Positions 1 through 22,519 of a DNA stretch of 22,519 nt are shown piece by piece; the stretch's first letter is position 1; each line of letters starts with the position of its first letter. The translations under genes and the position numbers were made by a program. The notes below the pieces were generated by a model. That model was not told the origin of the DNA and did no database searches. It saw only the letters and a list, made by a program, of their open reading frames with translations. The stretch comes from a virus, in the IMG/VR virus record IMGVR_UViG_3300049812_003812, positions 1 through 22,519 of that record; one strand, given 5' to 3'.

Positions 1-1595
1 GGAACGAGGCCGGGCAATTCAGCCTGGAGCGCCGCGACGATCCGCGCCCGCTCATTCGCCGTGTCGACCCCTGGCACTTCTTCCCCGATATGTCGGCCTC
101 GTGCATCAGCGAATGCGAGTTCACCTTCGAGCGCTACCTGTGGACGAAGCGCGACCTTCGCAAAGCCGTGACCAAGCAGGGCTTCAATCCCGATGCCGTG
201 CGCGAATTGCTGCGCGAGGGCCGCGACCGGAAGATGAACCACGAGACGAGCCTGAATTACCTGACGCAGCTCAAGTCGGTAACGGGCGAGGAAAATGGCG
301 CGATCAGCAATCGCTACCTTGTGTGGGAATACCACGGCGAGCTGGAGAAGGACGAGATTGTCACGATTCTCCAGGCGACCGGGCAACTGGAAATGGCGGA
401 AGAGTACGCCGCCATTGATGATCCTTTGCGCGAGTTTCGCGTGATCCTACATTTCTGCGAAGGCACCATCCTCAAGATCGCGCCGGAGTACCCGCTCGAC
501 AGCGGCGAACCGCTCTACAGCGTGTTCAACATCGAAAAGGTCGAAGGCTCGATATTCGGTTACGGCGTGCCCGACCTGATGGATGACAGCCAGAACGCGC
601 TCAATAGCGGCTGGCGCATGGCGCTCGACAATGCCGGGCTGTCGGTCGGGCCGCAGATGATTGTCGACAAGTCGGCCATCCAGCCCTCCGACAATAGCTG
701 GACGATGCTCGCGCGGAAGGTGTGGCTCCGCATCAAGTCGGGCGTGAAGGGCGAGAACCCGCCGATCGAGTTCTTTAATATCCCGAACAATATGCAGGAG
801 ATCGAGCGGATCATCCTGCTATCGCTCCAGTTCATCGATATGGAAACCGGCCTGCCGATGCCGCAGCAGGGCGACCAGACGCGCGACCAGACCAAGACCG
901 TCGGCGGCATGACGATCTTGCAGAACGCCGCGAACATCATCTTCCGCCGCATCGTGAAGAATTACGACGACGACGTGATCTCGCCCACCATGCGCCGGTT
1001 CTACGATTGGAATATGCAGTTCAATCCGAACCAAGCGGTGAAGGGCGATATGCAGATCGACGCGCGCGGCACCGCCGTTCTGTTGCTCAAGGAGATCCAG
1101 GCGCAGAACCTCATGTTCGTGGTTACGCAGCTCATGGAGCATCCGACGATCGGCCCGATGCTGAAACCCTACGACAACGTGATGAAGCTCTTTCAGGCGA
1201 TGATGATTTCGCCGGGCGACACGATGGTCAGCAAGGAAGACTACCTCGCCAGCATGAAGAAGCTCGCCGAGCAGCCGCCGCAGCCCGACGCGGCGCAGAT
1301 CAACGCGCAGGCTCGCATCGACAGCGCCAAGATCAACGCCGAGGCGTCGGCCAAGGATAACGAAACCGCGATTCGTGTGGCGGAGCTGCGCGAGAACACG
1401 GCAATGCTGGAGCTGGCGCAGGCGCAGGGGCTTCGCCTCGAAGAGATCCGCGCCGACCTCGAAAAGCTCGATCGCAAGCTCGCAGGGGATGAGCGCATAA
1501 AGGCGGTCGAGATCGCGAAGGAGGACGAGCGCGCCCGCGTTGCTCGCGAGCAGGGCCGTGACGAGGTTGAAGCCGTGGGGCAGGGGATCGGCTGA
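1..1595 (+). CDS. Phage portal protein (5' end outside window)
   Basis: The reading frame is open from the first base, so the start lies upstream; about 530 C-terminal residues are visible. The protein would form the dodecameric ring at one capsid vertex through which DNA is packaged and ejected and to which the tail adaptor binds. Support is the overall resemblance to portal proteins of P22/N4-type podoviruses: an aromatic patch DPWHFFPD near the visible start, a central mixed region with a GYGVPDLMDDSQ segment typical of portals that follow an N4-like order, and a long C-terminal alpha-helical, Ala/Glu/Arg-rich stretch (about 1290-1590) that suits a barrel or coiled coil. The position just before scaffold and major capsid genes fits. 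The stop overlaps the next start by one base (TGATG). The family is recognised by pattern only, without a search. Confidence 0.85.
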   Translation, partial: NEAGQFSLERRDDPRPLIRRVDPWHFFPDMSASCISECEFTFERYLWTKRDLRKAVTKQGFNPDAVRELLREGRDRKMNHETSLNYLTQLKSVTGEENGAISNRYLVWEYHGELEKDEIVTILQATGQLEMAEEYAAIDDPLREFRVILHFCEGTILKIAPEYPLDSGEPLYSVFNIEKVEGSIFGYGVPDLMDDSQNALNSGWRMALDNAGLSVGPQMIVDKSAIQPSDNSWTMLARKVWLRIKSGVKGENPPIEFFNIPNNMQEIERIILLSLQFIDMETGLPMPQQGDQTRDQTKTVGGMTILQNAANIIFRRIVKNYDDDVISPTMRRFYDWNMQFNPNQAVKGDMQIDARGTAVLLLKEIQAQNLMFVVTQLMEHPTIGPMLKPYDNVMKLFQAMMISPGDTMVSKEDYLASMKKLAEQPPQPDAAQINAQARIDSAKINAEASAKDNETAIRVAELRENTAMLELAQAQGLRLEEIRADLEKLDRKLAGDERIKAVEIAKEDERARVAREQGRDEVEAVGQGIG

Positions 1596-2919: not shown

Positions 2920-3921
2920 ATGGCCACCGGCACCACCACCTACGGCGACATCAACCAGCGTACCGCGGGCTATGCGTCCGCGGATATGCTTCGCCACTCC
3001 GAGCCTTGGCTTGTCCTGTCCAAGATGGGCGTGACCAAGCCGGTTCCGAAGAACAAGGCGGAGACGATCAAGTTCCGCCGCCCGATTCCGTTCGCTCCGG
3101 CCACCACGCCGGTTGTCGAAGGCGTCACGCCCACCGCGCAGAAGGTCCAGTACGAAGACGTGCAGGCCACTTTGAAGCAGTACGGGCGCCCGATCGAAAT
3201 CACCGACAAGGTGACGGAGCTTTCCGAAGATCCGGTCATGGAAACGGCGACCATGCTCGCAGGCGAGCAGGCGGGCGGCACGATCGAGCAGGTGCTTTAC
3301 GGCATCCTCAAGGCGGGCACGAACGTCTTTTACGCCAATGGCGCGGCGCGCAGCCAGGTCAACACCGTCCTGACGCTCAACAAGCAGCGTGCGGTCACTC
3401 GCGCGCTTGCCGGGCAGAAGTCGCTCAAGATCACCCGTATGCTGAAATCCGGCCCGGATTACGGCGTGCAGGCGGTCGAGGCGGCTTACGTTGCCGTGGC
3501 GCACACCGACCTCGACAGCGACATTCGCAACCTCGCCGGGTTCATCCCGGTCGCGAAGTACGGCACCCGTCAGACGATTTCCGATCACGAGATCGGTTCG
3601 GTTGAACAGGTCCGCTACGTCCTGTCGCCGGATCTGGCACCGTGGGAAGATGCAGGCGGCGCCGCTGGTGGCACCATGCTTTCGACCAGCGGCTCGCAGT
3701 CCGACGTGTACCCGATCCTGTATCTGGGTCAGGATGCGTTCGCGCACGTTCCGCTCAAGGGCAAGGAGGCGATCAAGCCGATGGTCCTCAACCCCGGCAC
3801 GCCGTCGAAGTCTGACCCGATGGGCCAGCGCGGCTATGTGTCGTGGAAGTGCTGGTACACCGCCGTCATCCTCAACGATCTGTGGATGGCTCGCCTCGAA
3901 GTCGCTGTCAGCGTTCTCTAA
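2920..3921 (+). CDS. Major capsid protein, N4-gp56 family
   Basis: This 333-aa protein matches the N4-gp56 family of major capsid proteins, which adopt an HK97-type fold and form the icosahedral shell. Visible hallmarks include the N-terminal MATGTTTYGDINQRTAGYAS, a conserved LRHSEPWLVLSKMG segment, KFRRPIPFAPATTPVVEGVTP around residues 50-70, the stretch YGRPIEITDKVTELSEDPV, and a C-terminal GYVSWKCWYTAVILNDLWMA. Length is within the family's usual range. A clear Shine-Dalgarno sequence (GAGGGA, 2907-2912) sits 7 bases before the ATG, in keeping with high expression. The gene follows the scaffold candidate and is followed by two hairpins and a small gene. Identification is by recognised family pattern and is secure; host range cannot be read from it. 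Confidence 0.92.
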   Translation: MATGTTTYGDINQRTAGYASADMLRHSEPWLVLSKMGVTKPVPKNKAETIKFRRPIPFAPATTPVVEGVTPTAQKVQYEDVQATLKQYGRPIEITDKVTELSEDPVMETATMLAGEQAGGTIEQVLYGILKAGTNVFYANGAARSQVNTVLTLNKQRAVTRALAGQKSLKITRMLKSGPDYGVQAVEAAYVAVAHTDLDSDIRNLAGFIPVAKYGTRQTISDHEIGSVEQVRYVLSPDLAPWEDAGGAAGGTMLSTSGSQSDVYPILYLGQDAFAHVPLKGKEAIKPMVLNPGTPSKSDPMGQRGYVSWKCWYTAVILNDLWMARLEVAVSVL

Positions 3922-4328: not shown

Positions 4329-4379
4329 GTTGGCGCATAGCTCCAACATTCCTCCAACACTCTTTCAGGAGTGATCGAA

Positions 4380-9446: not shown

Positions 9447-9449
9447 GCC

Positions 9450-9860
9450 GTGGAAACGATCAATTACGCTGCTGTGGTCCCCTGGGTTATCGAAACGATG
9501 ACCCTGTGCTTTCGCGCCGTCGCTGGCGGTCACGCGCTAATCGCGATCCTGATATGGTGGATGTTCCGGGGACAGGCCGAGCGCCCGCCCCATGATCGCC
9601 GGTTGAATGACAGAGCGTGGAATTGGTTCAACACCGGGGCGATCATAGGATCGGTGGGGTTCATCGCGCTCGATGTTCAGTATTTCACCGTCACCGGCAA
9701 AACGATCGGCGATGTGATCGCGATGATTGTGTGGTGGTGCTTCGCCACCGCAGGGACAATCCGCGTTGCCTCGCGTTCCGATCGCCCACGCTTCGTCTAT
9801 CTCGGCACGTCTATCTTCGTGATCGGAATGCCCCTCTATGTCTGGGCCACCGCTGGGTGA
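9450..9860 (+). CDS. Four-segment membrane protein of the lysis cassette
   Basis: The GTG at 9450 is chosen because GGGAG (9437-9441) lies 8 bases upstream and the frame then begins 3 bases after the fibre stop. The 136-aa product has four likely membrane segments: around residues 11-40 (rich in Ile, Leu and Trp), 57-79, 84-107 (VIAMIVWWCFATAGTI) and 114-136. The loops carry basic and acidic clusters (RGQAERPPHDRRLNDR). It stands immediately before the holin candidate and lysozyme, so it may be a second holin, an antiholin or a membrane regulator of lysis timing. The sequence is not recognised as a named family. A superinfection-exclusion protein is another possibility. Confidence 0.72.
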   Translation: METINYAAVVPWVIETMTLCFRAVAGGHALIAILIWWMFRGQAERPPHDRRLNDRAWNWFNTGAIIGSVGFIALDVQYFTVTGKTIGDVIAMIVWWCFATAGTIRVASRSDRPRFVYLGTSIFVIGMPLYVWATAG

Positions 9861-9946
9861 TTAGCCAGTTTCTCGCAGTTGGCACGAACACCGGAGCAAA
9901 GTACGCTGCCCCGGCAGGGATTTTTGCGCTTTTTTCGGAGCTTACT

Positions 9947-10360
9947 GTGGGGGGAATTGACATTGCCATGGTGGGCGCAATCGTAATCGGGCTTGCGTCC
10001 GGTGCGATGATCCGCCTTTCGTTTTTCATTCGCGAACCGGATGCCAAGCAGCGAATCCGCAGCGACATCATGGTGTCGTTCCTGTCCGCAATGGCGAACC
10101 TTATCATCGCTGGTATCATGGTCGCGGCGGGCACCCTGGCGATGCCGGATCTTCCCCTTTGGGGCGCGGCGGGTGTCGGCATGGTGGTCGGTTTCCGCGG
10201 CAACGACAATGTGCCTGCGTTCGCGCGCAAATGGATGAACCTCGAAGTGGAAAAGCCCAACGCCGAGACGATGCGCAAGGGCCTGTATGACGCGACCGAT
10301 CGCCCGAAAGATGGCGCAATGGACGATCTCATTCGGAGAATAGATGATGACGAAGCGTAA
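9947..10360 (+). CDS. Putative holin, three membrane segments
   Basis: Three candidate starts exist in this frame. GTG 9857 overlaps the preceding stop but lacks a ribosome-binding site, and the codons from 9857 to 9946 lack the usual GC3 bias. GTG 9947 has GGAG (9937-9940) at 6-base spacing and is chosen, giving 137 aa. ATG 9968 is a weaker alternative only 7 codons later. The protein has three hydrophobic segments: IAMVGAIVIGLASGAM, ANLIIAGIMVAAGTLAM and WGAAGVGMVVGF. A hydrophilic charged tail ends in DDLIRRIDDDEA. This topology and the position right before an endolysin, overlapping it by 17 bases, fit a class I-type holin that forms inner-membrane holes at lysis. The specific family is not recognised. 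Confidence 0.7.
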   Translation: MGGIDIAMVGAIVIGLASGAMIRLSFFIREPDAKQRIRSDIMVSFLSAMANLIIAGIMVAAGTLAMPDLPLWGAAGVGMVVGFRGNDNVPAFARKWMNLEVEKPNAETMRKGLYDATDRPKDGAMDDLIRRIDDDEA

Positions 10361-10964
10361 AGCGATATTCGACGCGGTGCGCCGCATTCTGGGGCGCGGG
10401 TTCAGTCCCGACGAAGTGGCGCAGCTCGATGCTGCACTGGATAGCGCGATGGTTCCTGACGCCCCTAGCGCGCCCGAACGCCCCGGCTCGCCGCGCAGGG
10501 TAGGGAGTAAAGGCACGGCGCTGATAAAGCGTTTCGAGGGGTGCGCTCGCATTCGGCCCGACGGCAAGGTCGAAGCCTATCCCGACCCCGGCACTGGCGG
10601 CGCACCGTGGACGATCGGCTGGGGGTCAACCGGCCCCGGCATCTCTCCCGGCACGGTATGGACACAGAAGCAATGCGACGACCGCCTAGACGCGGACCTC
10701 GTGCGCTATGCCGAGGGCGTGGCAAAGGCTCTGGGATCATCCATTGCCTCAACCAGCCAGGCGCAGTTCGATGCGCTGGTCAGCTTCCACTACAACACCG
10801 GGGCCATCGGACGCGCCACGCTCACCCGCCTGCATCGCGCGGGGGACTTCAATGCCGCAGCGGCGGAGTTCGGCAGATGGAAACACGCCGGTGGGCGAGT
10901 CCTGCGAGGGCTTGTCGTTCGCCGTGAAGCCGAAGAAGCGCTTTACCGGGAGGGTTCGCGATGA
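10344..10964 (+). CDS. Endolysin: GH24 (T4-type) lysozyme with N-terminal helical extension
   Basis: A 206-aa muramidase that cleaves the N-acetylmuramic acid to N-acetylglucosamine bond of peptidoglycan at the end of infection. The GH24 catalytic signature is clear: Glu65 in IKRFEGCARI, Asp81 in YPDPGTGGAP and Thr90 in WTIGWGST. A substrate-groove helix (SQAQFDALVSFHYNTGAIG) and the end block VLRGLVVRREAEEALY are also typical. Residues 1-50 precede the catalytic domain: a conserved-looking helical segment RKAIFDAVRRILGRGFSPDE, then a Pro-rich linker. No signal peptide or SAR segment is seen, so release should depend on the holin. Two adjacent ATGs (10344, 10347) are possible; GGAG at 10335-10338 serves either. 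It overlaps the holin gene, and the next gene starts at its own ATGA. Confidence 0.93.
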   Translation: MMTKRKAIFDAVRRILGRGFSPDEVAQLDAALDSAMVPDAPSAPERPGSPRRVGSKGTALIKRFEGCARIRPDGKVEAYPDPGTGGAPWTIGWGSTGPGISPGTVWTQKQCDDRLDADLVRYAEGVAKALGSSIASTSQAQFDALVSFHYNTGAIGRATLTRLHRAGDFNAAAAEFGRWKHAGGRVLRGLVVRREAEEALYREGSR

Positions 10965-11290
10965 AACGTATCGGCAATTTCGTGGCGAGCATTGCGCCGA
11001 AGGGATGGATCGCGATCGGATTGGTGGCCGTCCTGATCGCGGGCGTGATCGCCGCCGTAATCATTTCTGGCAACAGCGAGGAACGTCTGGTCGAAACCGC
11101 GCGCGAGAGCGGCGCCGCCGATGCAGTAATCACCGGGCAGAACACAACGCTCGATCAACTTGGAGACGCGAACGATGCCGAAGAGAACCTTGAGGCTGGC
11201 GGCGAGCGTAGTGCTTCTCGCTTTGCTGAGTGCTTGCGCAACAGTCGAAGAAAGCCCGCCTGCGAGCGCTACCGACCGCTCGCGGAGTAG
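10961..11290 (+). CDS. Inner-membrane spanin (Rz-like)
   Basis: A 109-aa protein starting inside the endolysin stop (ATGA). It has a short N-terminal cytoplasmic part, one membrane segment at about residues 16-37 (WIAIGLVAVLIAGVIAAVII), and a periplasmic helical region with TTLDQLGDANDAEENLE. Two cysteines, C91 and C101, near the end could stabilise dimers. This is the layout of an inner-membrane spanin, which spans the periplasm and joins an outer-membrane lipoprotein to fuse the two membranes in the last step of lysis. The partner gene lies largely within it in the +1 frame, the classic Rz/Rz1 arrangement. The protein is short for an Rz but has the expected order of elements. Confidence 0.82.
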   Translation: MKRIGNFVASIAPKGWIAIGLVAVLIAGVIAAVIISGNSEERLVETARESGAADAVITGQNTTLDQLGDANDAEENLEAGGERSASRFAECLRNSRRKPACERYRPLAE

Positions 11291-11441
11291 CTGGTGCCAG
11301 GGCGATAAGGCCATCAGCTACGCCCAGGCCGACGAGGAAAAGCAGGACGATCCCGGCAACCAGCTCGACAGCGAACCAACGGTTGCAGAGATCCAGGCTC
11401 ACAATGCGCGGCTGGCTGCGGCCTGCCGTGAAGAAGAGTGA
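11175..11441 (+). CDS. Outer-membrane spanin lipoprotein (Rz1-like), overlapping Rz
   Basis: An 88-aa lipoprotein. The signal peptide MPKRTLRLAASVVLLALLSA ends at a lipobox LSAC, so Cys21 is the predicted lipidated residue of the mature protein. The ATG at 11175 is chosen because it gives a compact signal peptide and has GGAG (11162-11165) upstream; a TTG at 11160 would only add five residues. The mature part is hydrophilic and ends in a helix with EIQAHNARLAAACREEE. The first 116 bases overlap the inner spanin gene in another frame and the rest extends past it, a staggered version of the Rz/Rz1 nesting. The product should meet the inner spanin across the periplasm and trigger membrane fusion. 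Confidence 0.85.
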   Translation: MPKRTLRLAASVVLLALLSACATVEESPPASATDRSRSSWCQGDKAISYAQADEEKQDDPGNQLDSEPTVAEIQAHNARLAAACREEE

Positions 11442-11474
11442 TTTTCGAGGCCGGTTGATATAGTACGGGCCGAC

Positions 11475-11480
11475 AGGAGG
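11475..11480 (+). promoter_or_regulatory. Consensus Shine-Dalgarno for the first ejection-protein gene
   Basis: AGGAGG, a full consensus, lies 5 bases before the ATG at 11486 in the 44-base gap after the lysis cassette. It is the strongest ribosome-binding site among the non-capsid genes here and suggests independent, efficient translation of the following block. Confidence 0.7.
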
Positions 11481-11485
11481 ACGCG

Positions 11486-12334
11486 ATGGCGTGGACGAAA
11501 GACGGACGTTGGATTCCAGAGGACGATAGCGTTGAAACGCGCCTGACCGGACTCCTCGCCAACGACAGCAAATACATGACCACCGCGCGCGCGGCGGGCA
11601 CGCGCACCGCGGCCCGGCGGGGGCTTCTGAACAGCAGCATCGCGGCGGGTTCGGCGGAGTCCGCTGCCATAGCCGCTGCCGCGCCGATCGCCTCGCAAGA
11701 CGCATCGCAGACTTTCCAGCGCAATCAGGCAACGCTCGAAACCGGGCTGCAATCCGATCTCTCGAAGCAGAGTTTCAACCAGCAGAGCGACCTCAACCGT
11801 CAGCAGAACGAGGCGTCTCTGGCGACGATCGACAAACAGGCCGGGTATCAGCGCGAGCTGGCGCAGATGCAGGAAGCCGCGGCGCTCGAACGGGCGAAGT
11901 TGTCCGAATCCGGCGCGACCGCGCGCCAGCTCGCAGACTTCGACCAGCGCACCGCCGAGCAGATCCGGAACATCGAGAGCCAGACCGCGCAGCAGGAGCG
12001 CCAGCTATCGAGCGCGGAGCGTCAGGCGATGATGGCTGCGGACACGAACATTCTGCAATCGCAAATCTCAGCCAATTCTCAGCTCTCCAGCCAGTACCTT
12101 TCCGCGTTCTCGAACCTTGCGGCGAGCCCGGATATTCCGGCCAACGTCCGCAACGCTTACATCGCGGAGTTCCAGCGCGTGATGAAGCAGGGGCAGGGGC
12201 TTATCAATCTGATGGACAGCGCCGAAGTGACGTGGAGCGGAACGCCCGCGCAGCCCATCGCGCCCTCCAACGCTCCGCCGATTATGAACGGCGGCGGTAA
12301 TGTGAACATGGCCGCGCGAGAGCGCATCGTATGA
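11486..12334 (+). CDS. Putative internal virion (ejection) protein, coiled coil
   Basis: A 282-aa protein. Its N-terminal half contains ARRGLLNSSIAAGSAESAAI followed by AAAAPIASQDASQTFQRN, a motif seen in internal core or ejection-associated proteins of several podoviruses. From about residue 95 to 190 it is a long Gln/Glu/Ala-rich helix with many QQ and ER pairs (TAEQIRNIESQTAQQERQL), likely coiled coil. The C-terminus ends in an unstructured Pro/Asn/Gly-rich tail. A consensus ribosome-binding site precedes the ATG. It opens a run of genes that ends with the giant polyvalent gene, as expected for proteins packed inside the head or ejected into the host. Function is inferred from motif and order; a minor tail protein cannot be excluded. 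Confidence 0.7.
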   Translation: MAWTKDGRWIPEDDSVETRLTGLLANDSKYMTTARAAGTRTAARRGLLNSSIAAGSAESAAIAAAAPIASQDASQTFQRNQATLETGLQSDLSKQSFNQQSDLNRQQNEASLATIDKQAGYQRELAQMQEAAALERAKLSESGATARQLADFDQRTAEQIRNIESQTAQQERQLSSAERQAMMAADTNILQSQISANSQLSSQYLSAFSNLAASPDIPANVRNAYIAEFQRVMKQGQGLINLMDSAEVTWSGTPAQPIAPSNAPPIMNGGGNVNMAARERIV

Positions 12335-12813
12335 TTCGACCGGCCACGCCTGCCGATCTCCCGCGGCTCTACGAGCTGGTGTTGGAAATGCACGCCCGCA
12401 GCGAATATGCGCGGCGCGGCATCGGCGTGGACGAGGCCAGCGCGCGGAGCATCCTCAAGGATGGGGTCTATCGCAACGGCAGAACGAACAACGGCGGCAC
12501 GCTTCTGAATGTGGTCGAGTTCCGGGGCGAGGTCGAAGGCTTCATGCTGGGGCTTCTCCAGCGCGTCTATACGATCGGCGACCGGTTGGAGGCGCAGGAC
12601 TATTGGCTCTTCACCACGAAGCGCTGCCCGCGCGTCGGATGGGGAAAGCTGGTCGACGCCTATCTCGCATGGGCGCTGAATAATCCGAAGGTGGCTGACG
12701 TTCGCGCATCGTGGACGGATGCTGCCGGAGTGGACGGCGAGAAGCTAGGTCGGATATACGAGAAGAAGGGCTTTCGCCGCTGCGGGGCGATCTACACGAG
12801 GGAATCGAAATGA
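12331..12813 (+). CDS. GNAT-fold acetyltransferase-like protein
   Basis: A 160-aa protein starting MIRPATPADLPRLYELVLEM, the usual first strand and helix of GCN5-related N-acetyltransferases. A central strand block (TLLNVVEFRGEVEGFMLGLL) leads to the acetyl-CoA loop region CPRVGWGKLVDAYLAWALNN, which corresponds to motif A (R/Q-x-x-G-x-G/A) with R-V-G-W-G-K. The C-terminal GRIYEKKGFRRCGAIYTR matches the usual Y-x-K-x-G-F end. It is joined to both neighbours by ATGA overlaps within the internal-protein run. GNAT-like proteins occur in this position in some podoviruses (the T7 gp13 family is related), so it may be a structural or virion-packed relative rather than an active enzyme. Substrate is unknown. 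Confidence 0.8.
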   Translation: MIRPATPADLPRLYELVLEMHARSEYARRGIGVDEASARSILKDGVYRNGRTNNGGTLLNVVEFRGEVEGFMLGLLQRVYTIGDRLEAQDYWLFTTKRCPRVGWGKLVDAYLAWALNNPKVADVRASWTDAAGVDGEKLGRIYEKKGFRRCGAIYTRESK

Positions 12814-13616
12814 GCGGCATCGTCAAAGCGGTCGGCAAGGTATTCAAGAAAGTCGTGAAGGTGGTGAAGAAGGTAGCTCTTCCCGCGCTCGCGATCGGCG
12901 CCGTCGTGCTGACCGGCGGCGCGGCGTTGGGCGTGCTTCCTGCCGTTGGCTCTGTCGTCGGAGGATTGGGACTCGGCGCAACGGTCACGAGCGCCTTGAC
13001 GGGCGCGGTCACTATGGCGGGCTACGGCGCGATGGCGGGCGGGCTTCTCGGCGGCAAGAAGGGATTCATGAAAGGCGCGGGCATGGGCGCAGCGGCAGGC
13101 GGGCTTCTCGGCCTGGCCGCGCCGGGCGCGTTGAGTGCGATCCCTGGCGCCATGCCAAGCGCGAATGCCGCCGCTGGCGCAGCCGGTCAGGTGGCGACCG
13201 CTGGTAGCGATCTCGTCGCGGGCGCAACCGGCGTGGCGGATATTCCCGCCGCGATGCAGGTGGTCGACCCTACCGTCGCGGCCATGACGCAGGGCGGCGC
13301 GAGCGCAGCGACCACGGCGGCGACAACCGCTGCGAAGCCGTCCCTTCTCCAAGGGCTTCTTGCCTCGCCCGTCGTGGGGCAGGTAATCGGCGGGATCGGT
13401 TCGGGAATGTCTGCAAACGCAGACGCGAAGGAGCGCAGAGCAGCCGAGGAACAGCGCCGCGCGAATTACGATGTGTCTGGGGGGCCGCTGGCGAACGGGC
13501 TTCTGGCGCCATTCCAGCCTGCCGCCGCTGGCACAGGGCCGACGGACTCGTTCGGGCAGATGGGCCGCTGGTATTACGATCCGAAGCTGGGGCGCCTCGT
13601 GCGCCGTGAGGGGTAA
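12810..13616 (+). CDS. Gly/Ala-rich hydrophobic internal virion protein
   Basis: A 268-aa protein starting at the ATGA that overlaps the previous stop, with GAGGGA a few bases upstream. It opens with a basic amphipathic helix (VKAVGKVFKKVVKVVKKVAL), then has long Gly/Ala/Val-rich hydrophobic stretches (to about residue 115) that could insert into membranes, then an Ala/Thr-rich middle, and a C-terminal tail with an Arg/Glu-rich helix (ADAKERRAAEEQRRANYD) and an aromatic end RWYYDPKLGRLVRR. Proteins of this make-up are common among podovirus ejection proteins that form a conduit through the cell envelope. The assignment is from composition and place in the gene run; the sequence is not matched to a named family. 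Confidence 0.65.
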   Translation: MSGIVKAVGKVFKKVVKVVKKVALPALAIGAVVLTGGAALGVLPAVGSVVGGLGLGATVTSALTGAVTMAGYGAMAGGLLGGKKGFMKGAGMGAAAGGLLGLAAPGALSAIPGAMPSANAAAGAAGQVATAGSDLVAGATGVADIPAAMQVVDPTVAAMTQGGASAATTAATTAAKPSLLQGLLASPVVGQVIGGIGSGMSANADAKERRAAEEQRRANYDVSGGPLANGLLAPFQPAAAGTGPTDSFGQMGRWYYDPKLGRLVRREG

Positions 13617-13624
13617 AGACTGCC

Positions 13625-14218
13625 ATGGGACTGTTGCAACAAAGCTCGAAGACTCTTCCCGGTCTGCCGTCGCCGCCAGAACAGGCGCAGCCCGCCCCCA
13701 CCAAGGTCGAGGACGGCGAGGGGAACGTCACGCCCGAAGAGCAGAAAGCATACGAAGAGTTCGTCGCCAACGCGCTCACGCTGATCCACACCCCGAAGGG
13801 GCCGAAGCCGGAAGTGCTGGAAGCTCTCAAGGTCGGTGGCGAGCAGGCGGAAGGAGCGCCCAACCCGTTCATCCTCGCGCTCGCGCAATCGGCGGTCACT
13901 ATCGTCGGCAAGCTCGATGACAGCGCGGCACAGGCTGGCAAGCAGATTTCCGACGATGTGCTATTCCATGGCGCGCAGGCGGTGATCGAAGAGCTGGTCG
14001 AGGTCGCAGAGGCCGCGCAGATCCACGAGTTCACCGAAGAGGACGTAAACGGCGCGTTCTTCCAGGCGATCGACCTCTACCGCCCGAAGCTGATTGAGAG
14101 CGGGCGCACCACGGAGGAAGAGCTGAAAGGGCTTTTCGCCGAGATCAACGAAGCAGACGCGCAGGGTTCGCTGGGGCAGATGCTACCGGGCCTGCCCGCG
14201 ACCGGCATGGAGGGCTGA
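13625..14218 (+). CDS. Hypothetical internal virion-type protein, 197 aa
   Basis: A 197-aa protein of unknown function in the internal-protein run. Residues 1-38 are Pro/Gln-rich and disordered. Residues about 38-175 look fully helical: EEQKAYEEFVANALTLIHTP, then PFILALAQSAVTIVGKLDDS, then a helix with AVIEELVEVAEAAQIHEF, and later FFQAIDLYRPKLIESGR. It is acidic overall. It begins 8 bases after the previous stop and is separated by one base from the next ATG, so it belongs to the same transcription unit. The helical pattern with a buried hydrophobic central helix suggests a folded assembly protein rather than a linker. No catalytic motif is seen. Confidence 0.68.
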   Translation: MGLLQQSSKTLPGLPSPPEQAQPAPTKVEDGEGNVTPEEQKAYEEFVANALTLIHTPKGPKPEVLEALKVGGEQAEGAPNPFILALAQSAVTIVGKLDDSAAQAGKQISDDVLFHGAQAVIEELVEVAEAAQIHEFTEEDVNGAFFQAIDLYRPKLIESGRTTEEELKGLFAEINEADAQGSLGQMLPGLPATGMEG

Positions 14219-14219
14219 T

Positions 14220-15062
14220 ATGAGCCGCATTCTTGGGGGCCTCCTGCAAGGTCTGAGTTCCGGCCTTGCGATTCAGGCGCAGCAAATGCGCGAGGACTCG
14301 CTCAACGCGCTTCGCCGACAGGACGCGCTCGCCGCAGAGGCGAGGCAGGACCAGCGCACGCTGGATGCGGAGAACCGTGGCGAACAGCGCATGATCCGCG
14401 CGGAAGGGCGCGAGGATGACCGCACGGTCGCCAGCGAGCAGCGAAACGCGGTGCTGAAAACCGGGCTTCTCGCGCTCCAGCACGAGTACGATATGACGGA
14501 GCTGGAAGTTCGCCAGCGGTTTTCGCTCGAAGAGATCGCGGCGCGCGGCGATCAGGATCGGGAAACTGCGACGCACAAGGGCGGGATCGACCGCAGCCTT
14601 GCCACATGGAAGGCCAATTTGGACCGCAGGAACGACGCGGCCTCGCAGAAGCTCCGCGACAAGCTCGATAGCGATGATGTGGACCGCATCATCACCGCCG
14701 AGGATGGGGAAGCGATCATCGTCTATAAAAACGGGGATCGCGAGAAAACCGGCGTCAAGCAGCGCGAGCAATCGTCGGGCGGTTATCCTTCATTGCTCGG
14801 CACCCCGCCAGCGCAAGAGCAAGCTCCAGCCCCGGCACCCAGCCCGACGCCGACGTTCAATGCGAACGATCGCCCGGTTCGCATCGACACGCCCGAAGCC
14901 AAGAGGCAGATCGAGAGCGCGGCATCGCGGCTTATGTCGAGCGGCGAGCTTGGAAAAGGCACGCGCGTTGGAGAAACAGTTACCGCTCCCGCTGGCGTCC
15001 TCGCCGGAAAGCCGGTAACACTCCGCTGGAATGGCAATCGCTGGGAGTTCGTGCCCGGCTGA
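14220..15062 (+). CDS. Hypothetical internal virion-type protein with charged coiled coil
   Basis: A 280-aa protein preceded by GGAGGG (14209-14214) at 5-base spacing. The N-terminal residues 1-20 have a Gly/Leu-rich start (MSRILGGLLQGLSSGLAIQA). Residues 20-155 form an extremely charged helix rich in Arg, Glu, Gln and Asp (RQDQRTLDAENRGEQRMIRA and onward), probably a single alpha helix or coiled coil. A short beta segment (DRIITAEDGEAIIVYKNGDR) and a Pro/Ala linker follow. A C-terminal beta module (VTAPAGVLAGKPVTLRWNGN) closes the protein. It is the last gene before the giant polyvalent gene, so the two products may be packaged or ejected together. Not recognised by sequence. Confidence 0.68.
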   Translation: MSRILGGLLQGLSSGLAIQAQQMREDSLNALRRQDALAAEARQDQRTLDAENRGEQRMIRAEGREDDRTVASEQRNAVLKTGLLALQHEYDMTELEVRQRFSLEEIAARGDQDRETATHKGGIDRSLATWKANLDRRNDAASQKLRDKLDSDDVDRIITAEDGEAIIVYKNGDREKTGVKQREQSSGGYPSLLGTPPAQEQAPAPAPSPTPTFNANDRPVRIDTPEAKRQIESAASRLMSSGELGKGTRVGETVTAPAGVLAGKPVTLRWNGNRWEFVPG

Positions 15063-15075
15063 CGAAAGGGGCGCT

Positions 15076-18000
15076 ATGCCGACTAAGGTTCCTACCGGCT
15101 GGTCAACGCAGGGAAGCAAGAGCAGTAGCGGCGTAAAGACCCCGGATGGCTGGACCTCTTCTGCCCCCACGCCCAACATTCGGCGCGGGCTTCTGTTCGA
15201 CACCCCGGAACCCGGCCCGGCCAAGACGCCCGCACAGCAGACCGAAGAGCGTATCGCGAGCGGCGAGCTTCAAACGGCGCCGCCCCCTGTCGAGCCGAAA
15301 ACGATCGAGGCCGACAATCTCGGCGAGCGAGCTGCGATCAAGTTCTGGCAGCGCATCAAGGGACTCGGCGCAGGCGGCGGGCGCATTGTCGGCGTGGGCC
15401 TCGATGAAGTTGGCGTCGATCCCGATAGCGCTTTCGCGCAATGGTTCAGCCGCCGCACCGAGGCGAACGAGGAATATGCCGGGCGCCGCGTCCAGGGTGA
15501 AACCACCTGGGAGGACGTGAAGGAGCGACCGAGCTTCGCCAACATCACGAAGTACGTGATCGAGCAGGGCGCTTCTTCTGCCGCCGATATGGGAACGCTC
15601 GCCAGCGGCGCGGGTGTCGGCGCGTGGATCGGTATGCAGTCGGGCGGCATTGCGCAGGACCGCGCCGAAAGCGACCTTCGCACCGATGCGGAATTGAAGG
15701 ACGTGGCCGTCGCGCTTCCCGCCGCCGTGGCGAGCGCGGCGCTCGAACGCTTGGGTATGTACGGGATTTTCGGCGCTCCGGCGAAAACCGTGCTGGGCCG
15801 CATGGTGCAATCTGTCGGCACCGAAGCGCTCACCGAAGCGCTGCAAAACCCGCTCGAATATGCAGCCTCCAGTGTCGGCACCGAAAAGGGTTTCGACGCA
15901 ATGGAAGCCATCGACCAAGCCGCCGCGGGCGCGGTGGCCGGTGGCGGCATGGGTGGCGGCATCCGTGGCACGAGCGAGGCGGTGGGTGCCACCGCGCGCG
16001 GCGTGCAGGGCTTCCGCGAAAACCGCGCGCTCGATCGCGAGCTGGCGCGTGATGCCGGTCAGGCGTCGGTTGACGCTTACGATCCCGGCCTGCTGTCCGA
16101 CGCCGATCGTTCGTCGGCGCTTCCGAACGATGCCATCGCGCGCGGCAAGGCGAAGATTGCGGAGCTGCTGGGAGAAAACCCGTTCACCGATCGCACGCCG
16201 ATCGCCCCCGTCGAACCCGCTGCGCCGGTTGAACCCGTCGCGCCGCCCGCGCCCCGCCCGGCGCCCGTAGCGCAGCCGAGCGGTGATGCGCGCTCGCAGT
16301 TCATGGATCGCGTGGGCGGTGTCGAAAGCGGAAACAGCGCCACGGCGAAAAACCCCAATTCGAGCGCGAGCGGCCTGTATCAGTTTACCAAAGGCACATG
16401 GGAAGGGCTGGGCGGCGATTGGTCGAAGCGCTTTGACGTGGGCGAGCAGACGCGCCTGATGAACAAGCTGACCGACCAGAACGAGTCGGCGCTCAAGCGC
16501 GCGGGCGTGAGCCTCACTCCCGGCAATTACTATCTCGCGCACTTCGCCGGTTCGGGTGGCGCGGTCGCGCTGCATAAGGCCGATCCGAACGCGAGCGCGG
16601 AAAGCGTGCTGGGCGAGGCCGTGGTGAAGGCCAATCCGTTCTTGCGCGACATGAGCGCGCAGGAAGTGATCGCGTGGGCCGCTGGCAAAATGGGCGGAGA
16701 GGCTACCGCATCGCCCTCCACCGCGCCGCAGAGCGAGGACACGCCTTCACTGATGGACGAATACGAGTCCGGCCTGGGCGAGCGCGGCGAGACAACGCAG
16801 GATCGCATCGACCGGGTACTTGGCCCCGATGTGGAGCAGCCCGCCAAGGGGCAGCGCGTCGACTTCACCCAGGGCGACAACACGGTCGCGGGCGTGGTCG
16901 AAGAGATCTGGGAGGATGGCGGCGAGAGCGGAGTTCGCATCCGTCTCGATAACGGCGCGGTGGTCAACGAAACGCTGTCCGACGTGCGCGATGCGGGCGC
17001 GCGGATCACGAGTCCGGTTGAGGTCGAGCAGGCGGCGGCGCCAGTGGCGACCGATGTACCGACCAGCGCCGAACCTGTCGCGACCGCAGACACCAGCCCG
17101 GCGCCGAAGCCTGCCGCGAGCGCAAGCCCGGTTGAGGCGCAGACCGCAACCCCGGAGCCGGTTCAACCCGCAGAGACGCCCCAAGCAGAAAGCCCTGCTT
17201 ATACGCTGACCGATAGCGCCAGTGGGAAAGGCTTGGAGCTGCGCGGCGCAACGCCGGAGCAGATTGAGGCAATTCGTGAAGCGGGCGTTCCGATCCCACC
17301 AGCCAAGCGCGATGGCGCGCTCGTGTTCTCGAAGAAGCGCGAAGAGGCTGTTCGTGCTGTGCTGGAAGAGTCGTCCAGCACAGCACGAACAGCCGCGCAG
17401 GAAGAGACGCCTGACTTTGCCGGTGCGGTGGAGAGTGATCTTTCGCGCGATCAGGTCGAGGCCGCAGCCGCGATCTTCGACAGGGCCGAGCAGCGCGAGA
17501 GCGCGCCCGCGCGTGCCAGCGCGCCGGAGGGGGCCGTGACCGATCTTGGACGCGATGATGGCCGATACAGCGTGGCGACCGGCGCCGTTTTGGAAACCGC
17601 GAGCGGCAGGCGTACCGCGCCTGCGCCAAAGTGGGATGCCAGCACACCGCGCAAGCAGACGTTGAGCCTCCAACGCCAGGCCAACTGGCTGATCGAAGAG
17701 GCGCGCAAAGAGGTCGAGGGACAGAGCGGGTTTGCTGCCGACGTTCTGAATCGCCTGTCTGCGAAGAACATGGCTCCGGTTGACTGGTCGCTGGTGAACG
17801 AGACGCTTTTCGGAAGCGAAGCAGGGCCGCAGACGCGCACCGCCCCCGCCGACAATCGCGCTACCCGCGATCGTATGCGTGCCGAAGCAGCGCTACCCGA
17901 AGGCTATCGCATTGCCGATACGTCGAGCGGTTACGTGCTGATGCGTCCCGACAACACAATGGTCGGAGAGAAGCCACTTGCGCCCGGCAACGTCTCACCG

Positions 18001-21000
18001 GAGACGTTCGAGCGCGCGGTGCAGCAGGCCGAGAACATGGCGCAGCGCGACCAGCAGAACCGGGCCGAGCGCCAGCCTGGCGCAGCTCTTCCGAACGCAA
18101 CCGCGCCGGAGCAGGTGCAGGGCGCAAGCGACGAACAGCTCGCCGAGATTGTGCAGGATTACGATTCTGTCCGCTCGTCGCAGGGCGTGGGCGATCAGCA
18201 GGTGACGCACGTATTCGATCCGCCCACGAGGGGCGAGGTCGTTCGCCTTGCGGATAAGGTGAAGGTGTTTCGCGATGGGCGCGGCTGGATGACAGCCGAA
18301 GAGGCCGCAGCGGAGATCGCCGAATGGAAAGAGCGAGCGCGGCAGCAGGGCGGGCCAGGCAGCGCGAACGCCGACAAAGTTGTTCTCTCTCTCTTCGATC
18401 TTTCGGGCGAGTGGTCGCGGCCTTGGGAAGAGGCCGGGTATCAGGTCTATCGGTTCGACATTCAGGACAATGCCGAAACCGGCGACGTGAACAATTTTTC
18501 GACCGAGTTTTTCGGCGATTGGTTCGGCGATTTCGACGGCCAGGACATTTACGCGATCCTCGCCGCCTGCCCTTGCACGGACTTCGCAAGCAGCGGGGCG
18601 CGGCACTTTGCTGCGAAGGACGAAGATGGCCGCACGGTTTCCAGTGTGCGCCTCGTTCAGCAGACCCTCGCGACTATCGAGTATTTCAAGCCTGCCGTGT
18701 GGGCGCTGGAGAACCCGGTGGGCCGTATCGAGAAGCTGGGCGGGCTTCCGCCGTGGCGTCTGTCATTCGATCCCAACCACGTCGGCGAAACCTACACGAA
18801 GAAAACGCTTATCTGGGGCCGGTTCAATGCCGACCTCCCGATCGCGCCGCGCGATCCCGTTGAGGGGTCGAAGATGCACAAGCTCTATGGCGGGAAGAGC
18901 CTCAAGACGAAGAACGCGCGCAGCGTCACGCCCGAAGGCTTCGCCTACAGTTTCTTCGCCGCGAACAACGCGGTCGACCATCCGGCGATGGCTCTCGCCA
19001 ACAAGTTCGATCGGCTTGACCGCGAGCTGATCGAGCGCGCGGTTGACGCGGGCGTCACGCCCGAAGCTATCACCGAAGCGGTGGAGGATCTGTATTACGG
19101 AGAGCTGGATGACGCAGGCGCGAATGATGCGATCCGCACGCTCTTGCCTTCCAGCCCTGGCGACCCGCAGGCTGATATGCTTCGCGCCGCCCAGGACTCC
19201 GGGCGGCTGGAGATCGTGGACGCGCGCACCCAGCGCAGTCGCGACAATGCCGACCGAGCGCTGGCCAGCGCTGATGCGGCCAACGCGCAGCAGGCGGCAG
19301 AGCAATCCGATATTAGCAGGCCGACCGACAAGAAGAACCCCAACCCGTTCGTTCGGAGGGGTGAGCGCTATACCCTGACGGGCGATATTGATTACCTTTC
19401 GGGTGGCAATACCTACGAGGTCGACATTGCCGAGAAGCGTTCGGCGTCGTTCCGCAACGTCGAGACGGATGGGCGATCGAGCCTGAATAATTATGCCATG
19501 CGCGAAGCGCTGGCCGATGGCCGAATGGTGCGCGCCGAAGCGGAGCAGGCGGCAGAAGAGGCGGAGGCCACCCCAGAAAGCGCACCCGCCACGCCCGATT
19601 ACGGCGCAAGCAATCGCCTCGTCTCGCAGGATCGCGCCGCCGAGCTGCGTGCGCGCCTCAAGGAAAAGCTCAACCCTGGCCGTCTGAATGCGGGCATCGA
19701 CCCCGAATTGCTGGCGATCGGGACGGAGCTGGCCGTGTTCCACGTCGAGGCCGGTGCGCGCCGGTTCATCGACTTCGCGAAGGCGATCCGGGCCGACGTG
19801 CGCGCAATGGATCTCGATCCCGATTCGGTGCGCCGTTATCTGCGTGGCTGGTACAACGGCGCGCGCGACTTCATGGAGGACAGCGGTGAGTCCGTCGCAG
19901 GCATGGACACCGCCGACGAAGTAGGCCGCTCCATGCGGACCTATGGCGAATGGGCGACCGACACCGTGCCCGCAGCGGAACCGGCTGCAACGCCCGCTCC
20001 CGTCGCGCCTGTTACCAATGCGCCGCCGCTGGAGGCCGCTTTCGCGCAAGCCTTTGTCGAAGGTCGATCGTTTGCGTCGATCACGCAAGCGCGCGCCTTC
20101 GCCAAGGAAACGACAGGACAGGATTATCGGGCGGGAACCGCCGAAGCGAAAACGCTGGACGAGGCCGTGGAGGCCGCGGTGGTTCGCGCCGCACAGGCGA
20201 TCGTGATCGAGTATCGCGGCGACCCGCAGCAAACTTATGGGCGGCTGGTTGATCTCTATTCTCGCCAGCCCAAGCTCGGCGTTCGCACGTCCACGAGCGT
20301 CAGCCAGCAGGCATATTCGACGCCGGTTCCGCTGGCCTATCTCGCATCACAGCGCGCGGGTATCACGCCGGAGTCCACCGTGTTCGAGCCGAGCGCGGGC
20401 AATGGCGCTTTGCTGATCGCCGCCACGCCGTCGAAAGTAATCGCCAACGAGCTGAACGCGGCGCGCGCGGCGCAGTTGCGCGGCCTCTATCCCAGCGCGA
20501 CCGTGCGCGAGAACGACGCCACCGATTATGCTCCGGCCACGAAGGTTGACGCCGTGATCGCCAACCCGCCGTTCGGCCCGATCAAGGGTGAGAATGGTCA
20601 ATCCATCGTATTCGATGTGGATGGCGAGTATTCAACGCGCGAGATCGACCACGCCATTGCGATGAAAGCGCTCTCGTCCATGAAGGACGATGGCAGCGCG
20701 GTCCTGATCGTGGGCGGATTGAACAAGCTGATTACCGACCCGCAGAAGCGCGCCGATGCCTACAACGGCAAGGCGAAGCGCGAGTTTTACCTCAAGCTCT
20801 ATTCGCAGTACAACGTCACCGATCACTTCACCGTCGCGGGCGAATTGTACGAGCGCCAGGGTGCGGGGTGGCCGGTTGACGTGATCGTTATCCAAGGGCG
20901 CGGAAAGTCCGCGCTTGCGGTCCCCGCGGTGCAAGCGCCGCGTCAATACAGCGATTGGGAATCGCTCACGGAGGCATTGAATGGAAGACCCCGCCAAGAT

Positions 21001-22519
21001 GCTGCGCCAGATCGCGAGCCGAGCCGAAACGATACTGTCGAAGCAGCCCGACCCGAAGCCACTGATGCGCGAAATACTGGCGAGCGCGGAGAGCGCGGGC
21101 CTGTTGGACGCGCCGGGCCCGATACGGACGGAGAACCCGGCCCTGTTCGTGCAGGATCTTCTGACGGACAACCCTCGCGCGCTGGAGTGGATGCAGACGC
21201 AAGAGACGCTGGAGCCGCTGAAAATCGCCGACCAGTTCGAGCTGCTAGACGCGATCCAGTAGAGGGGCAGGAAGGCGCGACACAGATCGCGTACCGCCCT
21301 GGCAGCAAGGCGAAGGCGATGGATACGCTGGTTCCGGTCAACATGGCGGCATCCATTGATGACGCGCTCGCCACGCTGGCCTCTGTTCAAGGCGACATTG
21401 ACGCTTTTGTCGCTGACCGCCTGGGCTATCCCGTTGCGGACCTGTCCGATTATTACGGCGCCGAGCAGATCGACGCGCTCGCGCTCGCGATCGACAATAT
21501 GGAGCGCGGCAGCGGCTTCATCATTGGCGACCAGACCGGGATCGGGAAGGGCCGCGTGGTTGCGGGTGTGATCCGCTACGCGATCCGCACGAATCGCAAT
21601 CCGATCTTCGTCACCGAAAAGCCGAACCTCTACCGCGATATGTTCCGCGATATGGCCGACATTGGCCTGCCCGCGATGCTGGGCCGCGAGATCAATGTCG
21701 TGATGACCAACGCGAACGAGAAGGTTCCGCTGGACGAAGACGGCGAAGCGTTCCTGACAAGCCCGTCGGCGAAGAAGCACAACGATATGCTTGCCAAGCT
21801 CGCGCGCGGCGGCGACCTGAAAGCCGAGGGCATCGACGCGCTCTTTACGACATACGCGCAGATGCAGACCGTGGCGGGCAAGGAAACCGTGCGCCAACAG
21901 GTTCTCGAAAGCCTGGCTGGTGGCGGCATCATCATCATGGATGAAAGCCACAACGCGGGTGGGCAGGGTCCGGCCATGTTCGAGGACAAGAACGCGCCCC
22001 GCAGCCGGGCCAAGTTCGCGCGAGATCTGGTCGAGAAGGCGCACGGCGTTTTCTATTCGTCGGCTACCTACGCCAAGCGCCCCGACGTGATGGATCTCTA
22101 TGCCGCGACCGATATGCGAATGGCGGTGCCGGAGATCGACAAGCTGGGCGAGACGATCGCCAAGGGCGGCGTGCCGATGCAGCAGGTGGTGGCCTCGATG
22201 CTGGCCCGCTCTGGTCAGTACGTGCGCCGCGAGCGCAGTTTCGACGGGATCGCCTACAATACCCCGTCGGTCGAGATCGACCGGGCGCAGTACGACGCGA
22301 CCGCCAGCATCCTCGCGGCTATTCAGGATTTCAGCGAAACGTATGTGGGCGAAGCGACGAAGGCGATCGACAAGCGCCTGCGCGCGGAAGGCCGGTCAAT
22401 CAATGCGGACAACGCTACCGGCAGAACCGGCGCCACATCGACCAATTTCACCGCGATCATGCACAACGTCGTGGATCAGATGCTTCTCGCATTCAAATCC
22501 GGCCCCTCGGCTGACCGGT
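15076..22519 (+). CDS. Giant polyvalent protein: transglycosylase, C5- and N6-methyltransferase-like domains, DarB/Sbno-like helicase (3' end outside window)
   Basis: The frame stays open for 2481 codons to the window end. The ATG follows AAGGGG (15066-15071). Domains in order: residues 1-400 contain Gly/Ala-rich hydrophobic segments (165-195, 216-290); 402-545 is a lytic-transglycosylase domain with Glu417 in GVESGN and SSASGLYQF; 592-641 is SH3-like; 655-705 is a Pro/Ala linker; 1096-1310 resembles a cytosine-C5 methyltransferase (C1165-P1166-C1167; ENPVG from 1212); 1515-1635 is a helical domain (GIDPELLAIGTELAVFHVEA) common in polyvalent phage proteins; 1736-1950 is a SAM methyltransferase (FEPSAGNG 1770-1777, NPPFGP 1830-1835); from about 2080 an SF2 helicase of the Strawberry-notch/DarB type begins (GDQTGIGKGR 2151-2160, DESH 2289-2292, SSAT 2328-2331). 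It likely travels in the virion, opens peptidoglycan, and protects or remodels entering DNA. The enzymatic domains are recognised; virion delivery and antirestriction are inferred. Codon bias is lost at residues 1969-2063, where a second ORF overlaps. Confidence 0.88.
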   Translation, partial: MPTKVPTGWSTQGSKSSSGVKTPDGWTSSAPTPNIRRGLLFDTPEPGPAKTPAQQTEERIASGELQTAPPPVEPKTIEADNLGERAAIKFWQRIKGLGAGGGRIVGVGLDEVGVDPDSAFAQWFSRRTEANEEYAGRRVQGETTWEDVKERPSFANITKYVIEQGASSAADMGTLASGAGVGAWIGMQSGGIAQDRAESDLRTDAELKDVAVALPAAVASAALERLGMYGIFGAPAKTVLGRMVQSVGTEALTEALQNPLEYAASSVGTEKGFDAMEAIDQAAAGAVAGGGMGGGIRGTSEAVGATARGVQGFRENRALDRELARDAGQASVDAYDPGLLSDADRSSALPNDAIARGKAKIAELLGENPFTDRTPIAPVEPAAPVEPVAPPAPRPAPVAQPSGDARSQFMDRVGGVESGNSATAKNPNSSASGLYQFTKGTWEGLGGDWSKRFDVGEQTRLMNKLTDQNESALKRAGVSLTPGNYYLAHFAGSGGAVALHKADPNASAESVLGEAVVKANPFLRDMSAQEVIAWAAGKMGGEATASPSTAPQSEDTPSLMDEYESGLGERGETTQDRIDRVLGPDVEQPAKGQRVDFTQGDNTVAGVVEEIWEDGGESGVRIRLDNGAVVNETLSDVRDAGARITSPVEVEQAAAPVATDVPTSAEPVATADTSPAPKPAASASPVEAQTATPEPVQPAETPQAESPAYTLTDSASGKGLELRGATPEQIEAIREAGVPIPPAKRDGALVFSKKREEAVRAVLEESSSTARTAAQEETPDFAGAVESDLSRDQVEAAAAIFDRAEQRESAPARASAPEGAVTDLGRDDGRYSVATGAVLETASGRRTAPAPKWDASTPRKQTLSLQRQANWLIEEARKEVEGQSGFAADVLNRLSAKNMAPVDWSLVNETLFGSEAGPQTRTAPADNRATRDRMRAEAALPEGYRIADTSSGYVLMRPDNTMVGEKPLAPGNVSPETFERAVQQAENMAQRDQQNRAERQPGAALPNATAPEQVQGASDEQLAEIVQDYDSVRSSQGVGDQQVTHVFDPPTRGEVVRLADKVKVFRDGRGWMTAEEAAAEIAEWKERARQQGGPGSANADKVVLSLFDLSGEWSRPWEEAGYQVYRFDIQDNAETGDVNNFSTEFFGDWFGDFDGQDIYAILAACPCTDFASSGARHFAAKDEDGRTVSSVRLVQQTLATIEYFKPAVWALENPVGRIEKLGGLPPWRLSFDPNHVGETYTKKTLIWGRFNADLPIAPRDPVEGSKMHKLYGGKSLKTKNARSVTPEGFAYSFFAANNAVDHPAMALANKFDRLDRELIERAVDAGVTPEAITEAVEDLYYGELDDAGANDAIRTLLPSSPGDPQADMLRAAQDSGRLEIVDARTQRSRDNADRALASADAANAQQAAEQSDISRPTDKKNPNPFVRRGERYTLTGDIDYLSGGNTYEVDIAEKRSASFRNVETDGRSSLNNYAMREALADGRMVRAEAEQAAEEAEATPESAPATPDYGASNRLVSQDRAAELRARLKEKLNPGRLNAGIDPELLAIGTELAVFHVEAGARRFIDFAKAIRADVRAMDLDPDSVRRYLRGWYNGARDFMEDSGESVAGMDTADEVGRSMRTYGEWATDTVPAAEPAATPAPVAPVTNAPPLEAAFAQAFVEGRSFASITQARAFAKETTGQDYRAGTAEAKTLDEAVEAAVVRAAQAIVIEYRGDPQQTYGRLVDLYSRQPKLGVRTSTSVSQQAYSTPVPLAYLASQRAGITPESTVFEPSAGNGALLIAATPSKVIANELNAARAAQLRGLYPSATVRENDATDYAPATKVDAVIANPPFGPIKGENGQSIVFDVDGEYSTREIDHAIAMKALSSMKDDGSAVLIVGGLNKLITDPQKRADAYNGKAKREFYLKLYSQYNVTDHFTVAGELYERQGAGWPVDVIVIQGRGKSALAVPAVQAPRQYSDWESLTEALNGRPRQDAAPDREPSRNDTVEAARPEATDARNTGERGERGPVGRAGPDTDGEPGPVRAGSSDGQPSRAGVDADARDAGAAENRRPVRAARRDPVEGQEGATQIAYRPGSKAKAMDTLVPVNMAASIDDALATLASVQGDIDAFVADRLGYPVADLSDYYGAEQIDALALAIDNMERGSGFIIGDQTGIGKGRVVAGVIRYAIRTNRNPIFVTEKPNLYRDMFRDMADIGLPAMLGREINVVMTNANEKVPLDEDGEAFLTSPSAKKHNDMLAKLARGGDLKAEGIDALFTTYAQMQTVAGKETVRQQVLESLAGGGIIIMDESHNAGGQGPAMFEDKNAPRSRAKFARDLVEKAHGVFYSSATYAKRPDVMDLYAATDMRMAVPEIDKLGETIAKGGVPMQQVVASMLARSGQYVRRERSFDGIAYNTPSVEIDRAQYDATASILAAIQDFSETYVGEATKAIDKRLRAEGRSINADNATGRTGATSTNFTAIMHNVVDQMLLAFKSGPSADR
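17346..17394. repeat. Perfect 21-bp inverted repeat with 7-nt loop inside the giant gene
   Basis: The left arm (17346-17366) and right arm (17374-17394) are exact reverse complements over 21 bases, with AGAGTCG between them. It lies in coding sequence at residues 757-773, in a region joining the SH3-like part to later domains. It would form a very stable hairpin in mRNA or a cruciform in DNA. No T-tract follows, so it is not an intrinsic terminator. Confidence 0.95.
20970..20974 (+). promoter_or_regulatory. Shine-Dalgarno for the nested ORF at 20981
   Basis: GGAGG lies 6 bases before the ATG at 20981, an ideal spacing, although it is inside the giant gene's coding sequence. It supports internal translation initiation in the second frame. 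Confidence 0.6.
20981..21262 (+). CDS. Nested 93-aa ORF in the +1 frame of the giant gene
   Basis: This ATG-to-TAG ORF lies wholly inside the giant gene in another frame. By hand count 79 of its 93 sense codons (about 85%) end in G or C, like flanking true coding sequence, while the overlapping giant-frame codons fall to 37 of 93 (about 40%). The product looks like a folded, acidic, mainly helical protein: MEDPAKMLRQIASRAETILS, then a helix PLMREILASAESAGLL, then VQDLLTDNPRALEWMQTQ and a final ADQFELLDAIQ. By contrast the giant frame here reads as a Gly/Arg/Asp/Ala/Pro linker without aromatic residues. A GGAGG site precedes the ATG. No family is recognised. The alternative is two compensating frameshifts, by mutation or assembly error, that would make this segment part of the giant protein. 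Confidence 0.6.
   Translation: MEDPAKMLRQIASRAETILSKQPDPKPLMREILASAESAGLLDAPGPIRTENPALFVQDLLTDNPRALEWMQTQETLEPLKIADQFELLDAIQ

Follow-up and report, generated by a model that had tools for sequence, protein, structure and literature searches.

A phage polyvalent protein with predicted lytic transglycosylase, two methylase-like domains and a helicase, encoded in a conserved slot of variable domain content

The stretch analysed here (the window) is a viral contig of 22,519 nucleotides which spans the whole of its source record (IMGVR_UViG_3300049812_003812, exactly 22519 bp). From the portal onward come a scaffold-position protein, the major capsid protein and the tail genes, followed by endolysin-like and GNAT genes, three small proteins and, at the contig end, a giant gene (Table 1). 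Among isolates, the capsid and portal are related to those of Pseudoalteromonas phage vB_Pun_Y3 (48% identity for the capsid protein) and Stenotrophomonas phage StenR_269, and the contig is best assigned to a short-tailed phage, as yet uncultivated, whose capsid protein is N4-like. An endonuclease VII-like ORF lies beyond the capsid gene, and in StenR_269 a homing endonuclease adjoins the capsid gene. The PHROG label of the amidase gene may mislead, as its vB_Pun_Y3 homologue is annotated as a stabilization protein. The three small proteins between the GNAT and giant genes had no family match, no promoter-like site was found from 9000 to 15400, and no RNA family match was found.

Table 1 Genes of the window and domains of the giant protein.
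Feature	Position	Strand	Residues	Remarks
Portal protein	3..1595	+		5' end missing
Major capsid protein, N4-gp56-like	2920..3921	+		
Endonuclease VII-like ORF	4371-4928			Between capsid and tail genes
PHROG 'amidase' gene	6298-8355			vB_Pun_Y3 homologue annotated stabilization protein, adjoins head-to-tail adaptor
Tail-fiber-like protein	8352-9446			Matches include collagen-like tail families
Endolysin-like gene	10344-10964			Separate from giant gene
GNAT acetyltransferase-like gene	12331..12813	+		Kept upstream of giant gene in related phages
Candidate virion/ejection protein	13625..14218	+		Kept before giant gene in related phages
Candidate virion/ejection protein immediately before giant	14220..15062	+		No family match; position as in vB_Pun_Y3
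Giant polyvalent-protein gene, 5' part	15076..22519	+		2481 codons, stop-free to contig end
Gly/Ala-rich N-terminal region	15547..16260	+	158-395	Common to N-terminus of L186 giant
Lytic transglycosylase domain (predicted)	16288..16689	+	405-538	Catalytic Glu417 by alignment
Conserved extension N-terminal to C5 methylase	18094..18294	+	1007-1073	
C5-cytosine-methylase-like module	18298..19104	+	1075-1343	PC Cys1167 (motif IV), ENP 1212-1214 (motif VI)
Module of ~115 residues, without Pfam match	19591..19947	+	1506-1624	In many giants
N6-adenine methylase (predicted)	20041..20934	+	1656-1953	TP 1749-1750, NPPF 1830-1833
Strawberry-notch-type SF2 helicase, first lobe	21277..22503	+	2068-2476	Second lobe beyond contig

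The giant frame is free of stops from the ATG at 15076 to the contig end, giving at least 2481 codons. We favour this start over a second in-frame ATG at 15031, because an AAAGGGG ribosome-binding sequence lies 7 nt before it and it falls just past the stop of the upstream gene at 15062, whereas the 15031 codon lies inside the upstream gene and has no such site. GC content is ~65% and even along the giant frame, and at this composition a stop-free run of such length is no chance event. The gene is incomplete, since the record stops before the second helicase lobe; complete or near-complete giant relatives comprise about 2300-7200 residues. Searched with a 24-base stretch from close to the 3' end, no other viral contig gave a match that would extend the gene towards its missing C-terminus, which is expected to hold the second helicase lobe and LPD-type domains, since relatives carry LPD and other polyvalent domains in that part. 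In order, the visible protein holds a transglycosylase domain, a C5 module, an N6 methylase and the first lobe of a helicase.

The Gly/Ala-rich region ahead of the first domain matches the N-terminus of another C5-bearing giant of 2939 aa (L186, E-value 7.8e-18). The transglycosylase domain itself matched phiKZ gp144 weakly at the sequence level, its AlphaFold2 model (pLDDT 88) found the phiKZ gp144 structure 3bkh as the best Foldseek match (E-value 1.2e-5, probability 1.00, query TM-score 0.71), and Glu417, part of an ES motif, is nearly invariant in the transglycosylase alignment. The modelled fold confirms the prediction of a phiKZ gp144-type lytic transglycosylase.

The C5 module matched phrog_757 ('DNA methyltransferase', 1.2e-40) and exceeded the PF00145 gathering score once the domain was scanned alone, with matches in all 14 aligned members. 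It carries the PF00145 signatures of motif I, motif IV (Pro-Cys) and motif VI (Glu-Asn), the Pro-Cys and Glu-Asn-Pro motifs being invariant in the 14-member alignment. Across 84 distinct C5 stretches, PC was kept in 82, missing only from a fragment and from half of a frame-split copy, and ENP was also kept in 82. The main catalytic signatures are present in all four domains of the giant, the sole departure being motif VIII of this module, where a lysine-rich YTKKT replaces QxRxR, a motif found in only five of the 84 stretches. Because motif VIII is non-canonical we use the name C5-methylase-like, and methylation activity is predicted only. The AlphaFold2 model of the module was of low confidence (pLDDT 45, 13 similar sequences) and a PDB sequence search with the C5 profile gave no match; the motifs and family matches support its assignment as a C5-cytosine-methylase-like module. 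A frame change within the C5 module interrupts the giant frame of a close relative (L022:10264-10426) and may reflect sequencing error, decay or recoding.

Between the C5 and N6 domains lies the ~115-residue module (LNAGIDPE...), which is 67% identical in the giant of Serratia phage Parlo and ranks with the best conserved stretches of the window's protein. A search for relatives using linker residues 1479-1718 as query found none. The methylase that follows fits the gamma-class signature, a TP motif followed by NPP(Y/F), both TP and NPPF being invariant in the alignment of relatives, and motifs and family matches support a predicted N6-adenine methylase. Of LPD36, which precedes the methylase in the DarB-type dyad, no clear GXGU motif was seen in residues 1640-1740, and there was no LPD36 match. 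C-terminal to this methylase, as in the DarB-type methylase-helicase dyad, lies an SF2/SNF2-related helicase with GDQTGIGKGR (Walker A, 2151-2160), DESH (2289-2292) and SAT (2329-2331) motifs, which matched AAA_34 (6.9e-24), and full-length relatives possess the second lobe (Helicase_C_4). A PDB sequence search with the N6-helicase stretch gave no match.

An earlier note on this DNA had proposed one uninterrupted frame of at least 2481 codons, holding a lytic transglycosylase, two different methyltransferase-like domains and a Strawberry-notch-type helicase. Each of these was borne out: the frame is open throughout, the transglycosylase was recovered by its model and the Foldseek match, and profile searches recovered the methyltransferases (phrog_757 and PF00145 for C5, family matches together with the motifs for N6) and the helicase (AAA_34, with its second lobe in full-length relatives).

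Rather than by catalysis, the methylase and helicase domains could protect DNA mainly by binding and covering it, with the C5 module as a DNA-binding or base-flipping scaffold. Dar of phage P1 acts in cis only, and a 2025 review describes its mechanism as unclear and perhaps one of physical occlusion (PMC12707154); this possibility, together with the non-canonical motif VIII, counts against a methylation-based reading. However, the retention of PC and ENP across the C5 stretches, and of NPPF and the helicase motifs in six of six aligned relatives, is as expected under selection for catalysis, and we consider protection by covering rather unlikely.

The gene occupies a slot that is shared with related phages. 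In vB_Pun_Y3 the position after GNAT and three small proteins is taken by a 3421-aa protein with ddrB-ParB, ART, LPD1, LPD5 and methylase matches, in StenR_269 the corresponding slot encodes a putative virion-associated RNA polymerase, and in L023 and L119 it holds a giant with transglycosylase and LPD38 domains (2349 aa in L023). As these genes differ in their domains, the slot is conserved whilst its domain content is exchanged. N6 methylase matches also occur in large frames on three further contigs (L079, L081 and L094). Virion-borne giant RNA polymerases are a protein class of N4-like phages, and StenR_269, with its putative N4-type polymerase, shares both the slot and a related portal and capsid with the window; by contrast, the visible 2481 residues of the giant hold no RNA polymerase domain.

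Candidate virion/ejection genes directly upstream and the late-gene surroundings agree with the ejection-protein context that had been suggested for the giant. A late protein might also remain unpackaged, modifying progeny DNA before packaging and using its transglycosylase for lysis or wall remodelling, but the slot is common to a putative virion RNA polymerase, and the separate endolysin-like gene means that lysis does not need the giant's transglycosylase. Further, the DarB-like gp69 of phage JC1 was detected in CsCl-purified virions by 51 unique peptides (PMC9144972), and P1 DarB is packaged in the capsid via its N-terminal 30 residues (PMC9024508). On the late-gene context, the shared slot and these two precedents we favour packaging, and regard a non-virion protein as quite improbable.

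For the C5 module, profile searches across all ORFs in the loci collected yielded 83 distinct matches. A C5 module, N6 methylase and helicase occur in one chain in 28 distinct giants among these loci; C5 is always first, and N6 precedes the helicase in 27 of the 28. An isolate with C5, N6 and helicase joined in this way is Pseudomonas phage 8P (L003), whose 5145-aa protein is annotated 'structural protein'. Five distinct giants, that of the window included, have an N-terminal transglycosylase and this triad in the same four-part order, and two of the other four are in bacterial genome assemblies (L052 and L066). In the complete L052 giant (4877 aa) all four parts were found by Pfam alone, its C5 match (E-value 0.0053) lying below Pfam's cut-off, and in L210 the transglycosylase, C5 and helicase parts were found in the same way. 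The four-domain fusion is therefore not unique to the window. As the contig is metagenomic and ends inside the giant gene, an assembly chimera might be suspected, but we reject this as having a negligible chance of being correct, on the intact frame, the even GC and the same domain order in four other giants.

The chains of the relatives also hold LPD1/3/5/37/38/39, InPase, ART-PolyVal, ddrB-ParB, PBECR1 and MuF_C domains. For example, a Massilia plasmid-borne giant (WP_099883082.1, L047, 5555 aa) combines InPase, C5, N6, SNF2, LPD37 and ART, and tail genes adjoin it. The C5 module is also found as a stand-alone plasmid gene, conjugative plasmids included, which suggests that modules are exchanged between plasmids and phage giants. 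At 62-68% identity, it stands alone on Pseudomonas, Citrobacter and Agrobacterium plasmids (L046:11771-12859, L048:19899-21143 and L049:11143-12195), two of them typed conjugative. In a tree of 80 C5 modules, in which the place of the window's module is without support, well-supported branches force at least eight gains or losses of the N6-helicase partner, a count that includes some 'C5 only' giants which are truncated or whose partners are perhaps too divergent for the profiles used. Such repeated gain and loss fits an exchangeable C5 module.

The giant is a phage polyvalent protein, a class defined in phages and conjugative elements, including members with lysozyme domains, and thought to be injected with phage DNA (Iyer 2017, PMC5512222). 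As in the proteins described there, it is very large, joins dissimilar enzymes in one chain and lies in a late virion gene neighbourhood, and its relatives contain the named LPD, InPase, ART, ddrB-ParB and PBECR1 domains; the C5 module, however, does not appear in the main text of that paper, where 'cytosine' occurs only in a reference title. Giants with transglycosylase, methylase and helicase are likewise published. In Bcep22 (PMC6630229) and Serratia phage Parlo (PMC6606913), DarB-like giants have an N-terminal transglycosylase, a methylase and an SF2 helicase in one chain, and, in Bcep22-like podophages and Parlo as in the window, their genes close the run of virion genes. A peptidoglycan-cleaving domain on a DarB-like chain, which the earlier note had held to be a notable step, is therefore not new. 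The Parlo giant differs in that its helicase comes first, then the methylase, and the searches found no C5 module in it, whereas in the window C5 and N6 precede the Strawberry-notch-type helicase. The cytosine-methyltransferase-like domain is a real addition, as the note had proposed, but not a unique one, since it recurs in other giants.

P1 DarB, a virion-borne anti-restriction protein that had been named as the precedent for the C-terminal half, shares an adenine methylase and an SF2 helicase with the giant, yet it is 2255 aa long and has no transglycosylase or C5 module described. In hhalign the two aligned weakly (probability 88%) over 124 columns of the methylase region only, and as the helicase did not align, orthology was ruled out. 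The precedent thus holds for a weak resemblance of the methylase part, but not as orthology, and P1 Dar may itself act by occlusion (PMC12707154). A search of the literature outside subscription journals found no paper joining polyvalent protein, cytosine methyltransferase and phage. Our analysis adds the recurrent C5 module ahead of the N6-helicase dyad, and the shared gene slot.

Taken together, the giant is probably packaged in the virion and co-ejected, opening peptidoglycan and protecting the incoming DNA through its methylase domains and motor. It would leave the virion with or ahead of the DNA, the transglycosylase would cut glycan strands as the periplasm is crossed, and both methylase domains and the SF2 motor would act in the cytoplasm, in cis, on the incoming genome against host restriction. 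Dar proteins have been described as co-ejected and protective (PMC12810830), and the motor has been proposed to travel along injected DNA with the methylase (Iyer 2017, PMC5512222). The N6 methylase and motor would form the known DarB-type dyad, to which the C5 module may add a second kind of base modification, making a methylase-methylase-motor triad.

The giant may plausibly be injected as one chain. Alternatively, the giant may be packaged but cleaved into working parts, such that no one chain serves both envelope and DNA: processing of polyvalent proteins by zincin-like peptidases has been proposed and it is the processed form of P1 DdrB that is incorporated (PMC5512222), and the C-terminal part, with a possible peptidase site, lies beyond the contig. 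Against this, neither the visible 2481 residues, in a domain scan, nor the Pfam matches of the relatives scanned include a peptidase domain, and we hold transport as fragments to be unlikely, if not markedly so. The same scan found no named LPD domain in these residues, and this, with the lack of a peptidase and the missing C-terminal part, counts against our favoured explanation of a co-ejected protein acting on both wall and DNA.

More tentatively, we suggest as a possibility short of an even chance that a widespread, virion-delivered triad marks the incoming genome on two bases, and that in some phages the same molecule opens the cell wall. If this were true, virion-borne enzymes would let some phages alter two bases of their newly arrived DNA. 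The range of known anti-restriction strategies would then be wider, and it would be easier to tell whether proteins of the DarB class act by methylation or by occlusion. The conserved slot, whose exchanged domains include an N4-type RNA polymerase, offers a natural series for the passage of very large proteins through a short tail.
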